Shown here in pieces: positions 485 through 55,200 of a stretch of DNA of 64,000 bases; the stretch's first letter is position 1, and each line of letters starts with the position of its first letter. The stretch covers positions 2,728,001-2,792,000 of the forward strand of contig CM034138.1 in NCBI GenBank assembly GCA_019914995.1, read 5' to 3'. The notes under the pieces were generated by a model. It was not told where the DNA came from, made no database searches, and was given only the letters and a program-made list of their open reading frames with translations. The translations under genes were made by a program, and so were the position numbers. Source of the DNA: Acanthochlamys bracteata. Taxonomy: Eukaryota > Streptophyta > Magnoliopsida > Pandanales > Velloziaceae.

Positions 485-3400
485 ATGGACATCGACGGCG
501 AACGCGGCGGCGCCGCTGTGTTCGACCGTATAGTTTCTCAACTCCCTCTTACCTTTCTACCGCCACGTGTAGTAGTTCCTGCACCAACACGGCGGCGTTC
601 CGCCATCGACTTCCTTCCTGATTTCGGCGGCGCTGCTTGGCTCGCTTACGGCGCTGAGAAATTTCTAGTAGTCTCTCACGTTCCTTCGCCTAATGATTCT
701 TTCAATACCTATGAGGTGGGCCCGTTCTTTTGCCAGGTTATCGACCCTCACCGCTGCGCTACGACTGCTGATAGTGAGAGAAGAGAGCACGAGGAAGTTG
801 TGAAAGCTGTGGAGTGGTGCCCGGTAACACCCTCGGATGGCGAGCTTGCTGTTGCCATCGGGGATTGTGTGGGCATTTTTTCTCCTGGGACTGCCGCAGG
901 CGAAGGAAGTGAGCCGGGTGAGATTTGATCGTTAGAGTTTTTTTTCCCCCTTTTTGCGGTGTTTGGGCTCTTTGATGGAGTCCAGTAGACAACTGAATGA
1001 TTAAAACTTGTTTCCAACATGAATTAGCTGAAAGTATTAACTTCTGTCCAGCTTTTTCTTTATTGGTTTAAGTTTTGTTGGATGTCATGCATTTGGTACA
1101 TATATGTTGTGTGGATGATAAGAAATTGCTTACCTTTGGAATAAAGTTTAGATTTTACTTGCGCTTTGATGAAAGATATTGTTTAATGAGTTTGTAAAGT
1201 TACTTCATCTTAATTGTTTGGAAAGGACATGTATTTAGAAAGCAGACAGGCAGACCTAAATGATTCATCGACTTAAAAGTTTGCTCTAGTACTCAATATG
1301 CAATGATCTGCATTTTGAAGTTAATTACTATATTCTATGCTCATTTAAGAAAAACAGACTCTCTAGGCGCTGATGTAGCATTCTCACCTGCATCTTTTAG
1401 GACATATCTGCTGGAGGCAGACAGCAGGCATTGTGCAGTCTTTCACTGTGGAGTCTATTAAATGGATTGGTTCAGGTGATGGGCTTGTTGCAGCAGGTAC
1501 TGATGTGGTTTTGTGGACAAAAAAGAGCAGATGCTGGGAAGTCAAATGGAAGTCAAGAGCATTGATTTCTCAAGGTCTGGTATCAGCCTGCTTCTTTGTT
1601 GATGGGCCTGTTGCAACTGCTGCTGGATTGTGTGGGAACGATATATCTCCTTTGTCCCGAAGAGAATCTTCGAAGGTTACAATTTATCTGAGTGGTGGAA
1701 AATCCTGTATTTCAGAGGTTCATTTATCACACCCTCAGCCGGTCTCGATGATTCAGTGGAGACCGACCTTTTCACAGGTGAAGGACGGTTTTGACTCACG
1801 GAGGGATGTGCTGATGACTTGTTGCTCAGATGGAGCAGTTAGATTGTGGTGTGAAATTGACTATGGAAGAGCTAAACGATCGGCAAAAGACATCCATGAT
1901 CAAATGTCTGCTAGACCTTCTTTCCATGTTGTAGCTGTCATTGAAGTGAACCATTCCCTGAAAGGAAATCTTGGCACTGATATATTTGTAGACTGGGCAT
2001 CAGAAGCTGGTGGCATTGTTTCTAAACATGAAGGGGATGTTTACGAGTTATTTGAAACTGAACATGACAATATTGGCAGATGCGAGTGGATAGTCTGTGT
2101 AGGTCCTAAGTCTGTGGTAACATTTTGGGCTCTTCACTGTCTTGATGACATATCCCCATTAAGATTTCCAAGAGTGACCATGTGGAAGAAACATGATGTT
2201 AAACAACTTATCTGTGAACATTCTATGTCTGTAGACTTATCAATCCTTGTTAAAGTTGTTGCATCCAGGAGCCAGCCTTATGGTCCACCGGTTTTATGTT
2301 CCTTACTTCAATTGCTACCTAATAATTCGTTCTATTGGCTGCAAATTGGTAATAAGGTCTTCGATGCTAATGAAAAATCCTCTAATGAATATAGTCAGGA
2401 GGTATGTAATTGGGATGTTGCAGACTCAACTATTAATTTGGATTCCCATACGGGGAAAATGATAGCAGTAGCAGTGCATCCATACAACTTTGAAGATGAG
2501 CTTGCCGCAGCTTTAGATTCTCATGGGCTACTTTTCCTGTGGTCTTTTCCGACAATCTCTAGTTGTTCCCTGGGCACAGAATATTACGTAAATCCTCCAT
2601 TCAAACTTTTAGGGAAAACTGCCTTGAATGAAATATTCCCTAAAACTGAGTATTCATGCTTGACATGGGCACCTTCAGTTTTGGATGATCATCACTTTCT
2701 TTTTCTGGGGCATGCAAATGGCATCAATTTTCTGATTGTCAGTATACCTGCCAAGGAACCATGGGATATCTTATATCACAAGATGCTTACTATCCCTTGT
2801 GGTGATGGCAGTACTAAAGCTCCACCTGATCAGATTTTCACAACATCTGTAGCTTGTGTTGATGGGCCATCATTTACATCCAATAGCTTCTTTGTTTATG
2901 CAATATGGTTTAACGATTTCAAGGCATTATCTTGGAAAGTGGTACTACACTCTGAAAGTTTGTCCAGTAGCAACCCTGATGGTGAAGATCTTCAAAGTTC
3001 AAAAGAAGGGGGAGCTCAAACTTTTTCAGTTTCCCTTGCTGACAGGGTGTGTTATGCTAGGGTGGTTCCAGCCTCATCTGACTTCCCGGATTTGAGTATT
3101 TCATGCAAAGTTACAAGTGTTGCTGCAGTCCCAACAGCTAATTGTCTTTCCGCCCAGCAGTTTGAAACTACCTCAGGTGGACCGTCTAGCAAGTCCTTGC
3201 CATACCAGTTTGCTACCGGCTTTCTAGATGGATCTGTAAAGCTCTGGAGAATGTCTCATTTGGAGTCCTCGTCCTGGGAGCTTGTGGGAAGCTTTACTTC
3301 ACATCATGGGCCTGTGGATGCAATTTGTGTATCTGATTATGGTGTTAGGGTTGCCACAGTGAGCAAAGGTGGCGAAGATAATAAAACTAGCATCCAGATA

Positions 3401-6400
3401 TGGGAAGCCATATTCCCTGTAGGTACTGGTTGCTTTTTATTAGAAGACAAATTGTCATTTATAGAAGCCGTTGTTGCTTTAAAGTGGGCAAGTTTGGGGA
3501 ATGGTCAGCTCGTGCTTGGGATCTGTACTTCCACGGAGTTACGAGTATATGCCCAGAGAAGATATGTTGACCCAAAAATCAATGAGATGCACATCTGGGT
3601 CTGCATGGCTTCTTCATCAGTTTATCCTGCTCCACAGGACTTCCTTTGGGGTCCCAAAGTGACTCCACTTCTTCTTCATAAAAAATATTTTGCTGTCTTT
3701 ATACCTTGGTTGCTCGCATCTGAAAGAAAAACTTGTCAAGATCATCCTGAAAGTTTTTCCAACACTGCATATCATAGCGTCCATAGTGCTATTTACTCAG
3801 TTAGGGATCTTTGTGAGACTAGTTCATCAGCAGATAATGAAACTATTAAGGAAAGTGGTTCCACTTTGTGCACTGCTAGGTCAATGATGTTGAGTAAAGA
3901 GTTAAGAGTTTGTAGAAACAATGAATTTTATAGAACAATTGACGTTGCAGATTTCTTGTGCAGACCCTTGCCAGTGTATCACCCGAAAGCACTTCTTGAA
4001 TATTTGTGTTCAGGTAAGACAGTACATGGTAAAAAATGGCTGGGCACAGATAACTACTTGTCTAAGTCAAATTATTTTGTTTTACCCTATTCTTTTCATT
4101 ATTAAGTGGATTAGTTTTCTCTTTTCAGTCTCTATTATTAGCCTTAAATTTAATGCCTCCAAAATTGTGTTTGATGTCTCTTGAATTCCACATGCAACTG
4201 TTATGATTTTGAAGCTGTTCTAGGTGAGATTTAATCTTCAGTACGCTATTTGTAGGTAATCATAGCCGTGCCTATGTAATTCTGAAGCATTTTGTTGGTT
4301 GTATCGTGTCCATTGATTCTGCTTCTACTTTGGGGAGAAGCAAGTGTCAGAAGCCAATACCTGAGATCCCAGAGATTGGTTTATCATCTTATTTTGAGGA
4401 GAGTATGAGTAAGGGTTCTCAATGTAAAGGATCACAATTGCAAGAATTTCAATGGGGTCAAGATATTTTGTCTGGATCTGCCAATTCTGACCAGGCTCGC
4501 TTGTACCAGCTAGCTGGAAGCAATTCAACGGCTTGTCTGCATCAGAACATGTCGACTACTGTATCACTTAAATCTGAAATTTTGGGATTCATTAGCATTC
4601 TCGAGAAGTTTGACGTTGCCGCTTTTATACGTGACATTTATAGAAATCACATCATAGCAATCATGGAACTTCTGATTGAAGTGAGTGACTCACCCTATGC
4701 TTCTGTATATGAAAGTCTTGATGAACCTGGACGAAGGTACTGCAAAACCTTGGTTTTGATAATTTGTGGTTTATTGTTCTTTTTTAATTGAATGCTGTTT
4801 AGTTTATGCTTAAACTTCATGCATATCTGCTCGGCTGTGCTTTTGTTTGTGCAATTTAGTCAGTCATCTTTTTTGGGGCGTTTGGGAGTGCTTATGAAAT
4901 AGAGATTTTCTAAAATAGAGGGTATTTTTGTCTTTTTTGAAAAACGAGATTTATTTTTTTTACTTCCAAAAAAATAATTAAAATATGTAATAAAAGATCT
5001 CACTCCGTAGAATTTTTCTACGCTTTCTAAATTTTTAAATAAATTCTTTATATATTTATAAAATATGTATTGAAAACGTGAAATGAGGAAAAGTTGAAAA
5101 GTAGCGTTTCAAACGCTCTCCCAAACGCACTTTTTATCATTAGATGTATGTTAGCAGGCTAGGTATGATAAATGTTCCCATTCTATGCATAAGTCTGCAT
5201 TTACTGTGCCTTCAGGATAATTGTTGGTAGAGAGTTCTAATCCATTTCTAGGCATGCAGATACTATTGTTTTGGCTTTACAGAGAAATTAACTTGCAGCT
5301 TCTATATTCCCTTAGTGCTTGATCATGTCCCTTAACTAACATTCCGTGCTAAGTTGAAATTCTTCTGCCACCTTTTTCTTTCTTTGCTCCAGCACAGAGC
5401 GAAAATCTCGAATACAATTTATTTCTATATTTTCTATATAAATGCTGATATAGTAGGGAACTAGTATGTCTAGACTGTGAAGATGTAGCAATCAAAGACA
5501 TAGTGAAGATCTTATCAAATTTCACCAACTTTGGGCCTTTGATGTTGAAGTGCATGAACATTCATGACGTGCAGGATGTCTAACAGATGTCTGCTTCACA
5601 TAACATAAAATAGGCATATAATTTTAACGTGCCTCAAGTAATGAAACTAATTGTTGGCCACATAAGCTTTAATCTTTTGATGTCAGTCTATGCCAGGCAT
5701 TGATCTTTTTATTGTCAAAGAAAGCTAGCTTCTCAAATTAGCATGTCAATAGATAATCAGTAGTTTGACCTCCTGAAGTTATTAAATAAGAGTATGTCCA
5801 TTTGAGCAAAGGCGTGGTTGAACCTGTTGTTGAATATTTTACTGGTGCCATGATTTGAAGCAGTCTGTACAAGGCTGCAAGTGGCAGTAGTAGATCTCAA
5901 TAACGCAGGGTGGTGGAGGTAGAAGCATCTATTGGTAGCCTGAAGTGAATATCTAGTGCATTATCTTCTGTACCATCATGCACTATTTACTGTACCTGTT
6001 ACAGACTGTTTTTAAAATTTTGTGATACAATTGTGCTCTAGTCTCATGAATAACCTTTCTGGGAATGTGGGCAAGACATGTATAATGATCCTTATTAGAC
6101 CTTGCATTGTAAGATAGCCCTCATAGTTGTTTTTTTCCTGTTATCGTACGTAGAATGTTCCTGTTTAGCACTGAACCTAACTGTTTTGCATGAGTTGCCA
6201 AGCTCATGTTAACCTTGTAATTTTTTGTAGCTTTTGTTGAGCAATTGATTGCATTCTATTTAATTTTTCGGATGTTACATGCAAGTCAGCTTCTTCCTTT
6301 GGACTAAAGTTTTAGTAAATGTGCTTATATTTTTTCTTATGTTTGTCTTAGCGAATATGACACGCAATTATACATCTATATGCAGGAGAGATGCAGATCT

Positions 6401-24765: not shown

Positions 24766-27700
24766 GGTTATATGGAAAGTTAGTGCAAGTGGCTCATGAG
24801 TTTTGTCGCTTGATTTAAGTAAATAGCCACAAAGGGTTTTGAATGTAGAGCATTAGTCTAAGAAGGAATTTGATAAAAGAGCTTGCTTCATGAGCATTAT
24901 AGCAGACATTTGATTATTTGATATAAGTATGGATAAACAAACAGCTCAAAAAGTGTATTTTAAGTTTGACAAATATGCTTTAAGGATTGTGATTTTATTT
25001 GGCATATAATTTGTATTGGCATAGGCTTTGGAATAAAGGTTAGGAGTGTTAATTTCGGTTAGTGGGTCGATTTTGGATCAATATATTTAATAATCGTGTC
25101 AAATTCTCTCAATCTTAATACAATCTATAAATTTATATGGATAAAAAATATTAATTTTAATTTAACTATAATTGGATCAAATTCGGGTCAATTTATTTAT
25201 AATTAAATTTATAATTTTAATTCTATATTTGTAAGCTTGGGTGAAATTTAAACATAAGTTGGAATAATATGCACGATGTTCTTGATGAAGAGATATGGTG
25301 AGTATTCGTCAAAATATATATTTTTTAGTATTTTTATCGGTTTTTAGAACGCTTCAATTTTTTTTAATTTTTTAAAATATGTGATGACAGTTGAAATTTT
25401 ATGATTACAAATACGTAATAATATTTAAGTTAAAATTTTGATATACATGCTAGATAACAAAATTTTGACAAAAATATTTTTACAAAATTTAAATTCGTTA
25501 CTAAAAAAGTACCTATACAGTATTACTTTTGATAATATTATAAATATTCATCTTATACTATTATAATAAAGTATAAAAATAAATAATTAATTATAAATAT
25601 AATATAATTTAATAATATATAAATTATTATAATTAATTTTTTATTATAAAAATTTTATTATACGATAAAGAAAAATTAGAAAAAAATTATTTTTTTCAAA
25701 ATATAACAATTCGAATTTATAAGTTAATATCTTATTTTAAAATATATATTTATACATGTTAAAATTTTTAATTATAATCTCTTTAAATCGATTAATTTCG
25801 GATTGAATTTTGAATTTTGTTATATATTGTCATCCTTATAAAAGGTCTTAGGGTGACACTTTCCCGTTTGACCCTTGCGAATATCATAAACCCATTTCAA
25901 CCTTTCTAGCTTGATGTAGATATGAGATATATTAAAATTGGAGCTGGTGTCTAACGAAGATTATAACCGATGGTGTGGATCTAATGGAAATTTTGCAAGA
26001 ATTTGTGGAGCGTTGAACTTAGGATGTGTTTATTTTTATCTTTACAATTCATTTTTAAAAAAAATTTATTTTCAACTTATTTTTTAAAAAATAAATATTA
26101 AATTTATTTCTAACAACTTTATTTTTAATAGTCATATTTAAATAAATATATTTTTAAAATTGAAACATAGCCAGACTTTGCCGCGGAAACTCTTCTCGCC
26201 GCCGGGGAATTAATTTTACAAACAGCAATGGGCACTGATGTGGACGTCCCATTTCATTTAAATTTTAATAAAATGGGGCTTAATTTATAGGTGAATAGTC
26301 TTTGTGGACTCATTCTTTTGCCTGATAAGATAAAAATAATCTTCTTGAACTCGAGTTATTAGCTAATTAAGTCCATACAGGTTGGCTTTGTGAAGTCCAC
26401 TAATTGTGCTTTTCAAAAGTTGCTCACAAGCATTTCAAACCTTTCCATCGTTATTAGGAAATCTGTTGCTTTCGTTCATTTTTCTACAAATATGAAATTT
26501 ACGATTAATTAAGATTTCAATCATATGAATCTAGAAAATACAATTGGTTCCAGATTATATACATGTAGGAGTACATGAGGCCTTTGATATCCTTAGAATA
26601 ATGTATATTTCTGCTTTATAGCTATGTCGGCTTGTGTTTGTTATCTGTATCGATAGCAAGTTATCAACTAACTTTTTGCATGGTTTGAGTGGAGAAAATT
26701 GGGTACACTTGGGCTTGAATGGTTAAAACTACTACATGCTAATGATGTGTCCTACTTGTTTTTGCATTCATCTTCGTAATATGGTAATCAACGCTTTCTT
26801 TGAGAAGTGTTGAAAAGAAGTTTCTTCTCCTTCTAGAGGAGTTCCGTTTTTTTTGGGGGGGCTGATGTCTCAATTCTGCCGCTGCAAAGCGTGGATCGTC
26901 TGTACGCATCTCTCTGTTCTGTGAACAAGTTTGGTAAACAAAGTGTACGTTTGACTAATCTTATAAAAAAATTTATTTTAATTATTTATATTTTAATACA
27001 ATAATTTATAAAATTTTTAAAATTTAAAAATACAGAAAAATTTTATTATTATCTATTATTAGTATTTTTTAATTAAAAATATTTATTTTTCAAATATTTT
27101 TAAATATATTCTTTAATTTTTTTTTAAAGAACCACTATCAAACAAACGTACGAACGTGTTCACGTGAGTAAAACTTTGATGCAATAGTTCTACGAGACCG
27201 TTTAGAAAAATACTTATAACATAATTTTTTTAAAATAATTTACATATTTTAAAAGTATGTATTTTATTAAAATATAATAAAATATAATTTGGATCTATTT
27301 ATATAACTTTTTTATATTTTTAAATTTTAATTTAATTTTATAATATTAAAAACTACCTACTCCGTGTTTGTCGTTGATCGCTATGGTTGACTTCTATTGA
27401 TGTCCGGTTTGATTTTCTCCATGTCTCATGTCTAAAACTAAGGGCACGCTGCCACGCCGGGCTGAAATAACTGCAAAAATAAACTTAAACAAATTAAATT
27501 CTTTCAGAAAACTTAGAAGTACAATAATTTCATATTTATCAATATTAAAGGAAGTTTACATTTTATAGAAGAATTTCTTTGGTTTAAAATGTTTAAATGT
27601 TTTCCTAATAGCTATGCGAACGTGGCAACGTCGATCAATTAAGTGAGTCCTTGGACTGTGTCACGGGAATTATTTTATGCCGAATATTGGTAATGTTTAC

Positions 27701-48593: not shown

Positions 48594-51500
48594 TTATCTT
48601 AGAATTCCATCAGAAGCTAAAGTTCCTTCAAGATCACCAATAATCCTTGCAATTCTCACTTCAAGGCCTCTCTGAATCTCTCTGAACAGCGTCCGAACGA
48701 CGTCCGCAAACTGATCAATCTTGATACCTGCTGATTTCTCTAGCCCGTCACTAGAAACGAAGCTTAACTCCATCCTTGACTGGACATCAATCAGTTTCTG
48801 TCCTGTAGCAACCATGAATCTCTGCAGTTGGAATGTTTCCTCCAGAAACCCCTGAAGTGCCTCAGTTTGCTGTTTTGATCTTCCAGTTAGTAGGTCCCGT
48901 CTGCTTTCGGTGCTTGAATTTTCATGCTAAGATAAGAACAGAAGCAAGTTCTTATAAAAATTTCATTGACTGAAACAAATTCAGGAAACAACATGACTGA
49001 TATGTTAGTGCAACCTGAAGTGAAAGTTTGCTAGGAATATGTTAGGCTATTAGCAATGATAAAAGGACTCTATTAACGTTTATATTGCAAACTTCTCAGA
49101 ACCTCTAAATCCAGATGAGTGTTAACAATAAATGAATCACGCAGAGAAGAATGTTGCCAGTACAATTGTACAAAGACATCATAGAAGTTGTTAGTGCATA
49201 TTTGGAGTGCTCGTCGCTACTTCTCAAAACTTTATTTTAATTTCTTATTATTCAATAAATATTATATAATATTTTAAAAATTAAAAAAATTATTGTACGA
49301 TCATAAAGTCTTTGTATATAACTTTTATTCTTTTTAGTAAAAAAATTAAGCTCTTTTTTTGAAAAAATTCAAAATAACTTTCTTTTAAAAAGTTTTTTAT
49401 TTTAAGTATTTCTAAACGTCCCCTAATCTACTAGTATAACCTTCTTCAACTAGTTCTACGTAGTGCAAGGCTAAAGAATTAGCATGTTTCTCTAAAAGGA
49501 AAAACAGGGCATAATTGATTCTTACCATTTTTCTGCACAAGTCATCCGTCTTCTCTTCAAGTGACTGATATCTTTTGACTTGCTTGTTGAGCAAAGTCAT
49601 GGCCTGAACGAAACCCTTCCCATGCTTGCTATAATCATCAATTTTTCTTTTATCAGTAAAACCTGCTGCATGGGATTCATCATCCTTTAGTGCCGACTGT
49701 TTAATTGTTTGTAGCCCAACCAACTTCTCAAGAACGATAAGTTGCTGTTTCAGCCTCTTGATCTTATAAGAAACTCCCAGAGCATGGATATCCATTTTCC
49801 AAGTGGAATCCTTCTCCATGAAACAATGCTCAGCTGATAGTAGTTTATCACTGGTACTAGTGCCTACTTGAGAGCTGCTTTGCTTCTGAACATGACCTGG
49901 ATCGATGCCAACTTCCTTTTCCTCTTATTTCTTCTCCTTTCTGATTTACAAGACTTTGCTTGCTATCATCAGATGAGTTTCCTATTTCCTCAAATTCCTG
50001 CGGAGCTTGATCGTCAATGCAGACAATGGCATGTTCATCATAGTTGAAGCTTGGTGGTGTGCCATCTGATGCACCAGATGTAGTATAGTCAACGACCGCA
50101 CTTTCTGGGGAGTTCATTTCAGCTTTACATTGATCTGGTTTCACTTCGTTAACTGTATTCATAGTAGAAATAGTATTACCGGTAATCTGAGAAATTGTCG
50201 GAGACTTGGAAATTATTAGGAGAGCTAGTCTTCTGGCAATTCTGCCGCAGGAGATTGAATTGGTCCTTGAGTGACTTTACTTCCTTCTTTTTGTCCATCA
50301 ACAAGGTTTCCAATCTTAAGTTGTCCTCTTTTAATTGAGACAAACTGCCATCAAGACCTTCAATGTCAGATTGTAGTCTGTTGTGGCACGAGATCACCTA
50401 CTAGGAGGCAAGCTGTGAACAGAGAACAAAAATAAGAAACTTGAAAGTAAAATAACAAACTTCTTCTCCCTGATGTAGGTGCTTGGCACCTTTATTTATA
50501 GCTTGGCCCTTTGCCAAAGCTAACTACAACTCAAACTCTAGTGAAACACTTATTGAAAACTCCTACACAAACTGCAACTCTGTTTACTAGTGAAACACTT
50601 GCCAGAGACTCCTACCTAAACAGAATACTACTAGAGAACAGAGACACCCATAGAAATAGAATTTCTAAACAGCATCATTGCAACCCCCACATCCAACACA
50701 TGCCTGAGATTGTGCCTTTATGCGTTGGCTCCTTCTAGGCAGTACCTGAGCTCGCTCTTCTTCTGTGCTCATCCTGACATAGTCGCTTCGTTTCTACATC
50801 CATGCTTAACAGCTGCCACTTCAACATCTCCAATTTCTCATCTTTCAGCATCATTTGCTCCGCAAATGCTTCGATTTCTTCATAATGCCTCTCTTCAAGT
50901 ATGGCTGCATACTTCTCCGCTTCCTGGCGAACCAACTCTCTCAGTTGATGAATAGTTTCCATCGTTGCTTCAGGAGATAGCAAAATCACTTCAAGAATAA
51001 GAAAGCAGTTAGTCGAAAAATTGTAGAATGGATTTCTATAAATTGGGTATAGATTTACGGAAAAGAATACTTCAACTAACAAGAAAATGTGTAACAAACA
51101 AGATTTCAGATGGAAGTCATACCAGGTTCATCATTTCCTTCACTCGAATACTGATCGAAAATTTCGTATTTCGCAACAATTTTCTCTCCCTTGTCGTCCT
51201 GTTCATTCCTGTTCTCAGCTTCGAAGTAGTCGAGCAACAGAGTCCTAGTGCTATACCCACCATTCCCATTCTTCAATTCCTCTCTCTTTCCATGAGAACA
51301 CCCTGCTTCCATGGAATGCAGCACTCTGCTTGACCCTCTCCTTTGCTTCCCCACTCTCAATCTATCTGCCTCAAGCTCGGCCTGCTTCTTCTTCGCCCTC
51401 GCCATCTTCACCTCTTTCAACAAAACCTGCTTCTCTGCGGTTTCAATCTTAGATTTTCGCAGCGTTGCAGACAGAATCTTGTCTTTCTGTTCCGCATCAT

Positions 51501-52215
51501 GCCGAAGTTTGATCACCTCAGCGGACATTTTCTCCATCAGTCCAGCAGCTTCTTCGCTTCGAGCTTTCTCTGCAACAAGCTCAATCTGCAATGCTTCTGC
51601 CTTTCTAACAGCTTTGCCCAATTCTGCTTCAAGCTGCCGCTGAGTCGACATCGCCTTGACGAATGCCGTCTTGTGCTTCCATAGCTCTGCTGAATGCTCC
51701 TGTGCTTCTTTGTTTACCCTCACTTTCAACTGCTCCGCAACTTCTTCAGCTACCTTCAACCTCTCCTCTGCTTCTTTTCTCTTTGCTGCTTCTTCTCCCA
51801 CAGCGTCTTCTTTATCTCTTAACAAAATCTCGCCATCTTGAATTCTCTTGTTGAGTTCAGAAATCATCTCTTCATGCTTGTTTCTGACGTTCCGCAGCTC
51901 ATTAGAAACAACTTGGAGCTGCAGAGCAAGCCTCTTACGCTCAGCTATCCAGCTCTGCTCATGCGCTGCAAAGATTCCAACAACCTTCTCGTTGGCTTTC
52001 GCATCTTCCACTCTCCTCAGCTTCAACTCAGCAATCACCAACTCAGCTCTCTTCAGCTTCGAATTCTCCTCATCACTAACTCTCTTCTCTAACTTTTCCA
52101 TCAATAACAAACTCAACAACTGCAAACTACCACGAAGCATAAGCTCTGTAACATTTGCCCATCGGTAGTTCTCCAAATCAAGCTTGGTTTTTTTCTTCTT
52201 TATGGAATGCAGCAC
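48594..52215 (-). pseudogene. Plant coiled-coil (myosin-heavy-chain-like) gene interrupted by a solo LTR and frameshifts
   Basis: This belongs to a plant-specific family of coiled-coil proteins (USO1/myosin-heavy-chain-like) of unknown function. The first long exon (about 52215 to 51123) is open for over 360 codons of charged heptad-like sequence (EQSWIAERKRLALQLQVVSN; KRKEAEERLKVAEEVAEQLK). The next coding block (50988 on: METIHQLRELVRQEAEKYAA, then EKLEMLKWQLLSMDVETKR) is cut at 50780 by a 401-bp solo LTR and resumes at 50378 (LQSDIEGLDGSLSQLKEDN). Frames then break near 50176-50215 and near 49920-49935. Later blocks return to the family pattern (MDIHALGVSYKIKRLKQQL; LLNKQVKRYQSLEEKTDDLC). 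The last exon, 48926-48594, ends VRTLFREIQRGLEVRIARII then GDLEGTLASDGILR. The exon 1 start is not resolved: the open frame begins right after an acceptor-like CGCAG, with no convincing upstream ATG. The later exons still look selected, so decay may be recent, or the sequence contains errors. Confidence 0.75.
50379..50779. mobile_element. Solo LTR (401 bp) in a coding exon, 5-bp target duplication TAGTC
   Basis: The insert begins TGTTGTGGCACGAG and ends ATCCTGACA, i.e. TG...CA termini. It is flanked on both sides by TAGTC (50374-50378 and 50780-50784), a perfect 5-bp target-site duplication. A TATA-like TTATTTATAG lies near 50492-50502. Two diverged copies of an AGTGAAACACTT...CTCCTAC motif sit near 50540-50615. 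There is no tRNA primer site, polypurine tract or coding region inside, so it is a lone LTR left by recombination. Deleting it together with one TAGTC joins the host frame across ETKRL and QSDIEGL. Confidence 0.85.
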
Positions 52216-55200
52216 TGCGAATGAGAAAGAAACACCAAAATATTTAGGAACTCATTGGTCTCCATGAGTGAATCAATGAAGAGAATGAGAGAATGATTGT
52301 ACTGCTGATTCAACTTCTACACGAAAGAACACATCCTGGTGTGTAGGATCATGACGCTGTTGGCGTTGGTAAAAATGAATTCTTTTTGGGGAGAACGAGA
52401 GAGAGAGAGATACAGAAGAAACAAGAAGAAGAAGCAAATGAGAAGAGGAGAAAACGTGATGGTGATGGTTGAAGCCTTCTGGTTTTGTTTGATTGACTGC
52501 TAAATTGGTTCCGGTTTTAACTTGAAATTTTTTTTCTCTGTTTCATTATTTTTCTTCTATAAGGTTTCTTTGAGAGTTTTGGTTCACCGGGAATCCTGCA
52601 AGTCTAGGAGGAAAAGCGTGTGAGTTGGCACGTGCAAAGTGCCTGCTAGTTAATATAAATTTGTTTAACTGACAGTTCATAATTAAGAATTAGTTAACGG
52701 AAGTTCACACGTTTTCTGCAAGTCTTCGCATGAAATACTTAAGGCACGCAGGATAATCTTACCAGCAATTACAAGAAAAAAAAAAAAAAAAAAAAAAGCA
52801 AGCGTGCCAAATGATTCACCTGAAAAATTCGTTCAGCAGTAACTTCACATGTTTTCTACTCTTCGTATGAAAAACTAATTTTCAGGGAGAGACACCGGTT
52901 TTAAAACAAAAGTTTACACAAAAAAGGCAAGTATATTGATTGATAAATTGCGACGAGCGCAGAGTGGAAACAACTCCTAGGACACTATCTTTATCTGAAA
53001 TCGGGCCAAGCATGAACATGACATGTGATTCAAATTCGACGGTTTGAATTCAGATGGGTAAGTGCCTGATTTGTTTAGGCATCACATTCGCAAATGTCAT
53101 GAGAGATTGATTGATGGACATGGGACCTGTTTGCACATTGGAATTGAACAGATAAATAAATGGGATGATAGCTGCTGCTACCAAATCTATAATAAAAATC
53201 TCTAGTTGAAATTTAAAAATATAGGAACGCCGTCTGTATGAATGAATGAATGAACTAAGTAACTAACCATTGCCTGTTCTCCTTCAGTTCAGAAACTGTC
53301 GTTGACATTCACACCAGAAGCATGTTTGTTAACCCAAAACTAAAATCATGCATCAAATGTTTCAAGGAACTTTACATAGGAGTGCTGGTTATAATAGTCC
53401 TGGTTTTCTTTTTCAGTAGGGTACAGCAGAACAGTAAGTTACAGGGAAACAGATCCAAGAAAGCACAAAATTAAGAAGGGATAAAGGTAGGCAATTGATT
53501 AAGATTAGTTAAAACTTACTACAATCTGGTAGAGAGTTGGCACAAACATTATCACTTTCTGAAATGTTTAGGCTCAAATCCCTTTGTTAGAAGATTTGGA
53601 ATACCAATGTAGCTTGAGTAGAGAGCAATTTAGCTTATGTTCAATCATGCTTAGGCATAGCTAACTAGCACTATACCATACGTAGGATAATGAAGATGTC
53701 CACTGTAATCATTCAATGACATAATAGACTAGTAACTTAATTTGCAGGCATTACATGAAAGCTTATTAGACATCCAGAAAACTAACCTAGAATAAGTACC
53801 AATCGCGGTCATCTGAATTGGCAGAAAATGTTTTGATTTCTATACTTGTTGTGAGATGATTAGCTCAAGATTCTATAGGATGTAACCAGCACATGCACAA
53901 TTCTAACTTATCCGCTTATGCTGCTATTCCAATATGCCTCCAACTTCTACCAACAACAGAAGCATTGGAAATCCCTGGAAATCAGGTTTCCTACGAGACT
54001 ATCGGAATATTTTAGAATTATTTAACTTTTTTTTATATATGGTTAATTTATATATTCTTTAATTTTTAAAAATAAAATATTTTTAAAAATCTATTAAGAA
54101 ATATTAAATATAAAATTTTGATAATATATAATAAATAATATTAAACATGCCCTATTAACCTAACTCATGCGCCTTTTCATATACTCGTAACGTTTTGTCA
54201 AATTTGTTCAGCAAAATCACTACAATAATATTTCTCCCCGTAACAACTCCCAATTTTAGTTAAAGAAGATAAAGAACACTTCCAACCTCACAAAACTTAC
54301 TCCGCCCTATTTCCAATCTGTTGAGTTTCGAATTATAGTAGTGGTTTCAACCTTCAAGACCTAAAAGAAAAGATCCACTTAGAAATTTCTACTCTTTTTC
54401 TCTGTGTTCTGACATTTGTTTGATGTTGAGAAAGTAATTTAGAGCCGTTTCTGAATGTGTTCAACAATTTTATTTTATTTTATATTTTTAAATAAATTTT
54501 TTATAATATTTTATAAATTTTAAAAATATAAAAAAAATTATTATTATTTATTATTATTTTTTTAAACAATCACTAAACGACCACTTAACTAACCAAAGAA
54601 GCCGGCCATTAGTGGTACAAGCCTAAATCATGACGAAGTTCGTTCCATAGTTGTCAAATCAAGACCGCTCGTCCGGATCGATTCAGAAATCAATTTTATT
54701 ATAAATTCGAAACGTAAATCGGTTCGAATTTATAATAAAATTGTTTATGCAACTATTGTTCATTCAGCTATATTAATCTTTATTCGTTTAGTTTCATTAG
54801 CATTATATATTCCAAATGGTCGCGTCGAATTCAAAGCAATTAATATTTTAGTCTTTCCTGAAGAAGTGCTGAAAAGAAACATAAAAGAAAAATAACCATG
54901 AAAAAATGTTCAACTAACAAACGCACAGAATAATTGTTCCTCCGGATCTTTTGATTCCGCAACAACTGCATGACTGCTTTAAGCTAGCTTAAAAGACACA
55001 AAGCTTTCAATTACACAAAACTCATATCTTTTTGTCAGATTTGAATTCAAATTTATTTTCTGTATTTTAATTTACACCAAACTTATTGAATTTATTTTTA
55101 ATTTATTTTTTATCGAATTCAGTCATACTATAAACTTATTTTGTACATTAAAACACACTCTAAATTTATCCAAGCTCACTTTCAAACATTTGCTTGTTAG

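Follow-up and report, generated by a model that had tools for sequence, protein, structure and literature searches.

Exon 2 of a minus-strand gene with three exons in the analyzed stretch of Acanthochlamys bracteata DNA (contig CM034138.1, positions 2,728,001 to 2,792,000; 64,000 nucleotides, hereafter the window) is interrupted by a solo long terminal repeat (LTR) in the sense orientation. The LTR very probably stems from a recombined Ty3/gypsy element, and the gene copy that harbors it (the C13 copy) is in all likelihood a young pseudogene, its duplicate on C14 being open. Most likely, the pseudogene was either killed by the element or hit by it after the gene had died.

The solo LTR and its target-site duplication

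The insert occupies positions 50379–50779 (minus strand), is exactly 401 bp long, has TG...CA ends and no internal region, and is directly flanked on both sides by TAGTC (50374–50378 and 50780–50784). The initial annotation, which had described an insert of this length with these ends and with exact TAGTC duplications, was right to the base. Its further claim that a solo LTR lies within a coding exon is borne out by the target-site duplication, by the homologous LTRs of paired elements elsewhere in the genome and by the alignment with the C14 duplicate. Two of these paired elements, L012 on C1 and L013 on C8, served to orient the LTR by their PBS-like and PPT-like sides. Near the start of the sense LTR there is a 35-codon ORF (MSTEEERAQVLPRRSQRIKAQ..., 50665–50772, minus strand), whose stop-to-stop frame opens just outside the LTR, at 50793.

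A search of the genome with the LTR (195.5 Mb in 557 contigs; the counts are lower bounds) yielded at least 22 matches, the window among them, from 18 scored candidates. The interior had been called LTR-like from its letters, and further LTR copies are indeed present, both paired (L012 and L013) and single with duplications. The six next-best matches, located on C8 (two), C7, C1 (two) and C15, are 95–98% identical to the LTR in the window; the remaining ones are mostly 66–79% identical, the exceptions being short pieces at 85–100%. Over the first 375 of its 401 positions, the window LTR is 95.5% and 94.7% identical to the two L012 LTRs; over its full length, the values for the two L013 LTRs are 97.5% and 95.0%. 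In terms of K2P distance, the closest LTRs are a partial one on C7 (0.0197 over 361 sites) and one LTR of the C8 pair (0.0204 over 399 sites), followed by those on C15 (0.031) and C1 (0.040 and 0.043), the other C8 LTR (0.063) and L008 (0.098).

The window and 12 other loci were scanned for the same end motifs together with a 5-bp duplication, one mismatch being allowed. Five loci were positive: the window, the single LTRs L008 (TTTTA/TTTTA) and L014 (TGTTC/TGTTC), each with a perfect duplication, the pair L012 (TTCTT/TTCTT), whose two LTRs are 96.7% alike, and the pair L013, with an imperfect duplication (TATCA/TATTA). The L014 LTR lacks an inner portion, and the identity of L008 to the LTR in the window is only about 70%. 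At the other eight loci (L015–L019, L020, L021 and L022), no duplication was found with the set end motifs; L020 and L021 contain two LTR matches each. As the same ends and a 5-bp duplication recur at five loci, the insert in the window is an LTR and not a chance match. The paired element on C8 also contains an inverted LTR piece of about 140 bp (L013:5783–5921).

The parent element family

Four minus-strand ORFs of L012, which are separated by stops, were searched separately against Pfam. Positions 3871–4884 match RVP_2 (protease), positions 3004–3867 match RVT_1 and RNase H, and positions 1562–2830 match Integrase_H2C2 and SH3_Tf2-1, with rve below its cut-off; the first ORF, in the gag position (5140–6267), had no Pfam match. 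The resulting domain order, protease – RT – RNase H – integrase, is characteristic of Ty3/gypsy elements, and on this domain evidence the parent family of the LTR in the window is assigned to the Ty3/gypsy LTR retrotransposons. Directly after the 5' LTR there is a PBS-like sequence, TTTGGTACCAGAGC in L012 and TTTGGTATCAGAGC in L013; both presumably resemble the primer-binding site for the initiator tRNA-Met. Ty1/copia, a first guess made from the LTR, is ruled out by the domain order of L012.

The host gene and its duplicate on C14

Alignment with the C14 duplicate places exon 1 of the host gene at 51123–52265 and exon 2, which bears the solo LTR and two other frame-breaking gaps, at 49526–50988 (alignment with L011); exon 3 (48594–48926) is open, with 110 amino acids followed by a stop. 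All three exons are on the minus strand. Positions 26186–63199 of the window are colinear, in inverted order, with C14:4760686–4798094, a block of about 37 kb, which indicates that a segmental or whole-genome duplication gave rise to the gene pair. The C14 copy is thus a duplicate and not an orthologue, so that it shows the ancestral coding frame but not an orthologous empty site. Its open frame of 876 codons is spread over three exons, the introns being of the GT-AG type as drawn by the alignment, and the codons at which the C13 copy carries the LTR are uninterrupted. If the LTR and one copy of the target-site duplication are left out, ...MDVETKRL/QSDIEGL... of the C13 copy matches ...MEVESKQL/QSHIEGL... 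of the C14 copy codon for codon. The frame restoration that had been proposed earlier, with KRL joined to QSDIEGL, is therefore confirmed locally by the insert-free duplicate.

Among the best candidates in the genome, a 71-aa exon piece from upstream of the LTR and a 371-aa exon 1 piece each matched a single further locus, on C14, with identities of 77% and 83%, respectively; neither piece found a third gene copy among these candidates. Since only the C13 and C14 copies were found, the indels cannot be polarized by a third sequence. For three pieces of the host gene (P0001 and two from L011), no Pfam family was found at an E-value of 0.001. Elsewhere in the window, a short repeat (4875–5108) has five matches (69–89% identity) within 74 kb of C14 and is perhaps a small dispersed element.

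Frame-breaking lesions in the C13 copy

In the unspliced C13 copy, the host frame meets its first stop within the LTR, a TAG at 50737–50735, the 15th codon beyond the LTR junction; this is the stop that had been noticed earlier as TGCCTAG near 50738. Besides the LTR, the C13 copy has three frame-breaking gaps relative to C14, of 13, 71 and 2 bp, that are missing from the initial annotation. The 13-bp gap (52250/52249, minus strand) lies just after the start codon (52265–52263) and puts it out of frame, so that the original start reads 21 residues and then a stop. The 71-bp gap (50205/50204, minus strand) leads to a TAA at 50178–50176. The 2-bp gap is placed by this alignment at about 49927/49926 (minus strand) and could be an assembly error.

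When C14 exon 2 was compared with the window by TBLASTN, it fell into four pieces in three frames, interrupted by the LTR and by the gaps of 71 and 2 bp. For exon 1, TBLASTN gives a single-frame match that begins before the start codon and runs through a stop; the evidence for the 13-bp lesion is therefore the C14 alignment and the reading of the frame, not TBLASTN. The same comparison listed six C14 ORFs of at least 130 aa with identity above 55%, four of them being the host gene or its antisense; the other two ORFs of the block are each matched in one frame, the second over residues 6–182 of 236. The C13 copy, in short, shows frame-breaking lesions against an intact syntenic duplicate, as expected of a pseudogene.

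Selection and timing

We calculated pairwise dN/dS between the C13 and C14 copies by the Nei-Gojobori method over 842 codons, gapped codons being excluded. For the whole gene, dN was 0.091, dS 0.429 and dN/dS 0.21 (bootstrap 0.16–0.27). By part, the ratio was 0.21 in exon 1, 0.19 in exon 2 before the LTR, 0.25 after the LTR and 0.11 in exon 3; in the 56 codons from the LTR to the 71-bp gap it was 0.48, with a wide interval (0.20–1.27). Such low ratios reflect past constraint and are by themselves no sign of gene death. There were no stop substitutions in the 842 codons compared, against 22 to 30 expected if the whole branch had been neutral, and hence the loss spans at most about 10–13% of the branch. 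Assuming equal branch lengths, the C13 copy was constrained for roughly 87–90% or more of the time since the duplication. The dN/dS of 0.21 and the lack of stop substitutions together demonstrate constraint on the C13 copy until recently. If the LTR and synonymous rates are equal, the nearest LTR pair sets a limit on the insertion of roughly 5% of the divergence of the duplicates.

Alternative readings of the locus

The initial annotation had suggested that the LTR may serve in part as an intron, with the donor GT at 50797 and the exon resuming at 50397; a near-normal protein would then still be made. Splice sites were scored with approximate plant splice frequencies, not trained on this genome. 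The donor/acceptor pair does exist and gives an in-frame bypass, being the second best of seven in-frame pairs, and its acceptor (5.7 bits) is comparable to the gene's own acceptors (5.2 and 4.9 bits), but its donor GAT/GTAGAA reaches 2.2 bits, whereas the two native donors of the gene score 8.0 and 8.2. The pair ranks 56th among 349 GT-AG pairs, seven of which give an in-frame, stop-free bypass, so that a pair of this kind is not special; moreover, GTAGAA is present at the same place in the C14 duplicate, whose exon 2 stays open through it. Nor does the frame remain open through the rest of the gene once the LTR is removed: it meets the TAA that follows the 71-bp gap about 66 codons past the LTR, with the 2-bp gap thereafter, and, as estimated from the C14 protein, about the last 40% of the protein would be left untranslated. 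Given the splice scores and the downstream frame breaks, we reject the LTR as a spliced intron and consider a near-normal protein made in this way extremely improbable.

The C13 copy could instead be alive in a truncated form, its message ending or its frame stopping in the LTR, with a 423-residue fragment read from the first in-frame ATG of exon 1. The frame is open from 52251 through exon 1 and on through exon 2 as far as the LTR stop, pairwise dN/dS in these open 5' parts is 0.21 and 0.19, and the sense LTR carries AATAAA within the stretch TATAAATAAAG at about 50500–50490. However, the original start codon has been shifted out of the reading frame, and the ratios 3' of the LTR (0.25) and for exon 3 (0.11) point to similar constraint there, which argues for constraint on the whole gene and not on the 5' part alone; we regard a living truncated gene as unlikely. 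A variant of this reading, in which the sense LTR rebuilt the copy by ending a constrained 5'-half transcript and the shortened protein of 423 residues could bind and interfere with the full C14 protein, seems very unlikely; the fragment appears rich in coiled-coil-like sequence, as judged by eye and not from any computation. The sense LTR might also act as a promoter that drives the gene's 3' half: its sense strand contains TATAAATA at 50500–50493, and the region 3' of the LTR shows pairwise constraint, but gaps break the frame twice in the first 460 bp or so beyond the LTR, and we see hardly any likelihood in this reading.

The LTR stop and the three further frame-breaking indels thus make a young pseudogene the most likely state of the C13 copy. 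The course of events was probably as follows. A segmental or whole-genome duplication would have left gene copies on C13 and C14; a Ty3/gypsy LTR retrotransposon would have entered exon 2 of the C13 copy in the sense orientation, presumably arriving whole, and recombination between its LTRs, as the anatomy of the insert suggests, would then have left the solo LTR. The LTR stop and the three other indels, in whichever order the lesions arose, would have ended the C13 frame, the C14 copy staying open. The full C13 protein is probably no longer made, and its function is presumably carried by the C14 copy.

Significance and comparison with known systems

The locus represents a clear and roughly datable case of a duplicate pair, long kept, that lost one copy late; it is marked by constraint on both halves, the lack of stop substitutions and a young element between the halves. 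It also carries a warning, as little can be concluded from a "restorable frame" flanking an insert before the whole gene has been compared with an intact copy. Apart from its dating value and this warning, it is an ordinary broken duplicate.

A literature search by title and the start of the abstract found no paper on this locus among the records listed; the search was done without the species name and is weak. In maize, Ds1 is reportedly spliced from exons (Adh1-Fm335; Wessler 1991), so that an insert in an exon is treated as an intron. As an exon insert it is a precedent for the intron model of the initial annotation; however, Ds1 is a DNA transposon, whereas the present insert is an LTR and the frame is also broken elsewhere.

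Solo LTRs of plant genomes are described as remnants left after recombination of full elements (PMC1560396). The present insert resembles them in being one LTR without an internal region and differs in lying inside a coding exon. In pearl millet, insertion of the gypsy element Juriah into exon 1 of ABCB1, flanked by a 5-bp duplication, is the reported cause of the d2 dwarf (PMC6686935). The natural d2 allele has the full-length element, another element in what is presumed to be the promoter and an ORF that differs by one synonymous SNP; an engineered solo-LTR d2 allele failed to rescue an Arabidopsis double mutant despite expression of the transgene in the lines tested (PMC6686935). The present locus shares with d2 a gypsy-type LTR element, a 5-bp duplication and a coding exon as the target, but in place of a full-length element it has a solo LTR alone, along with three more lesions. 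It is a further instance of a kind already known from pearl millet d2 and from the solo LTRs of plants.
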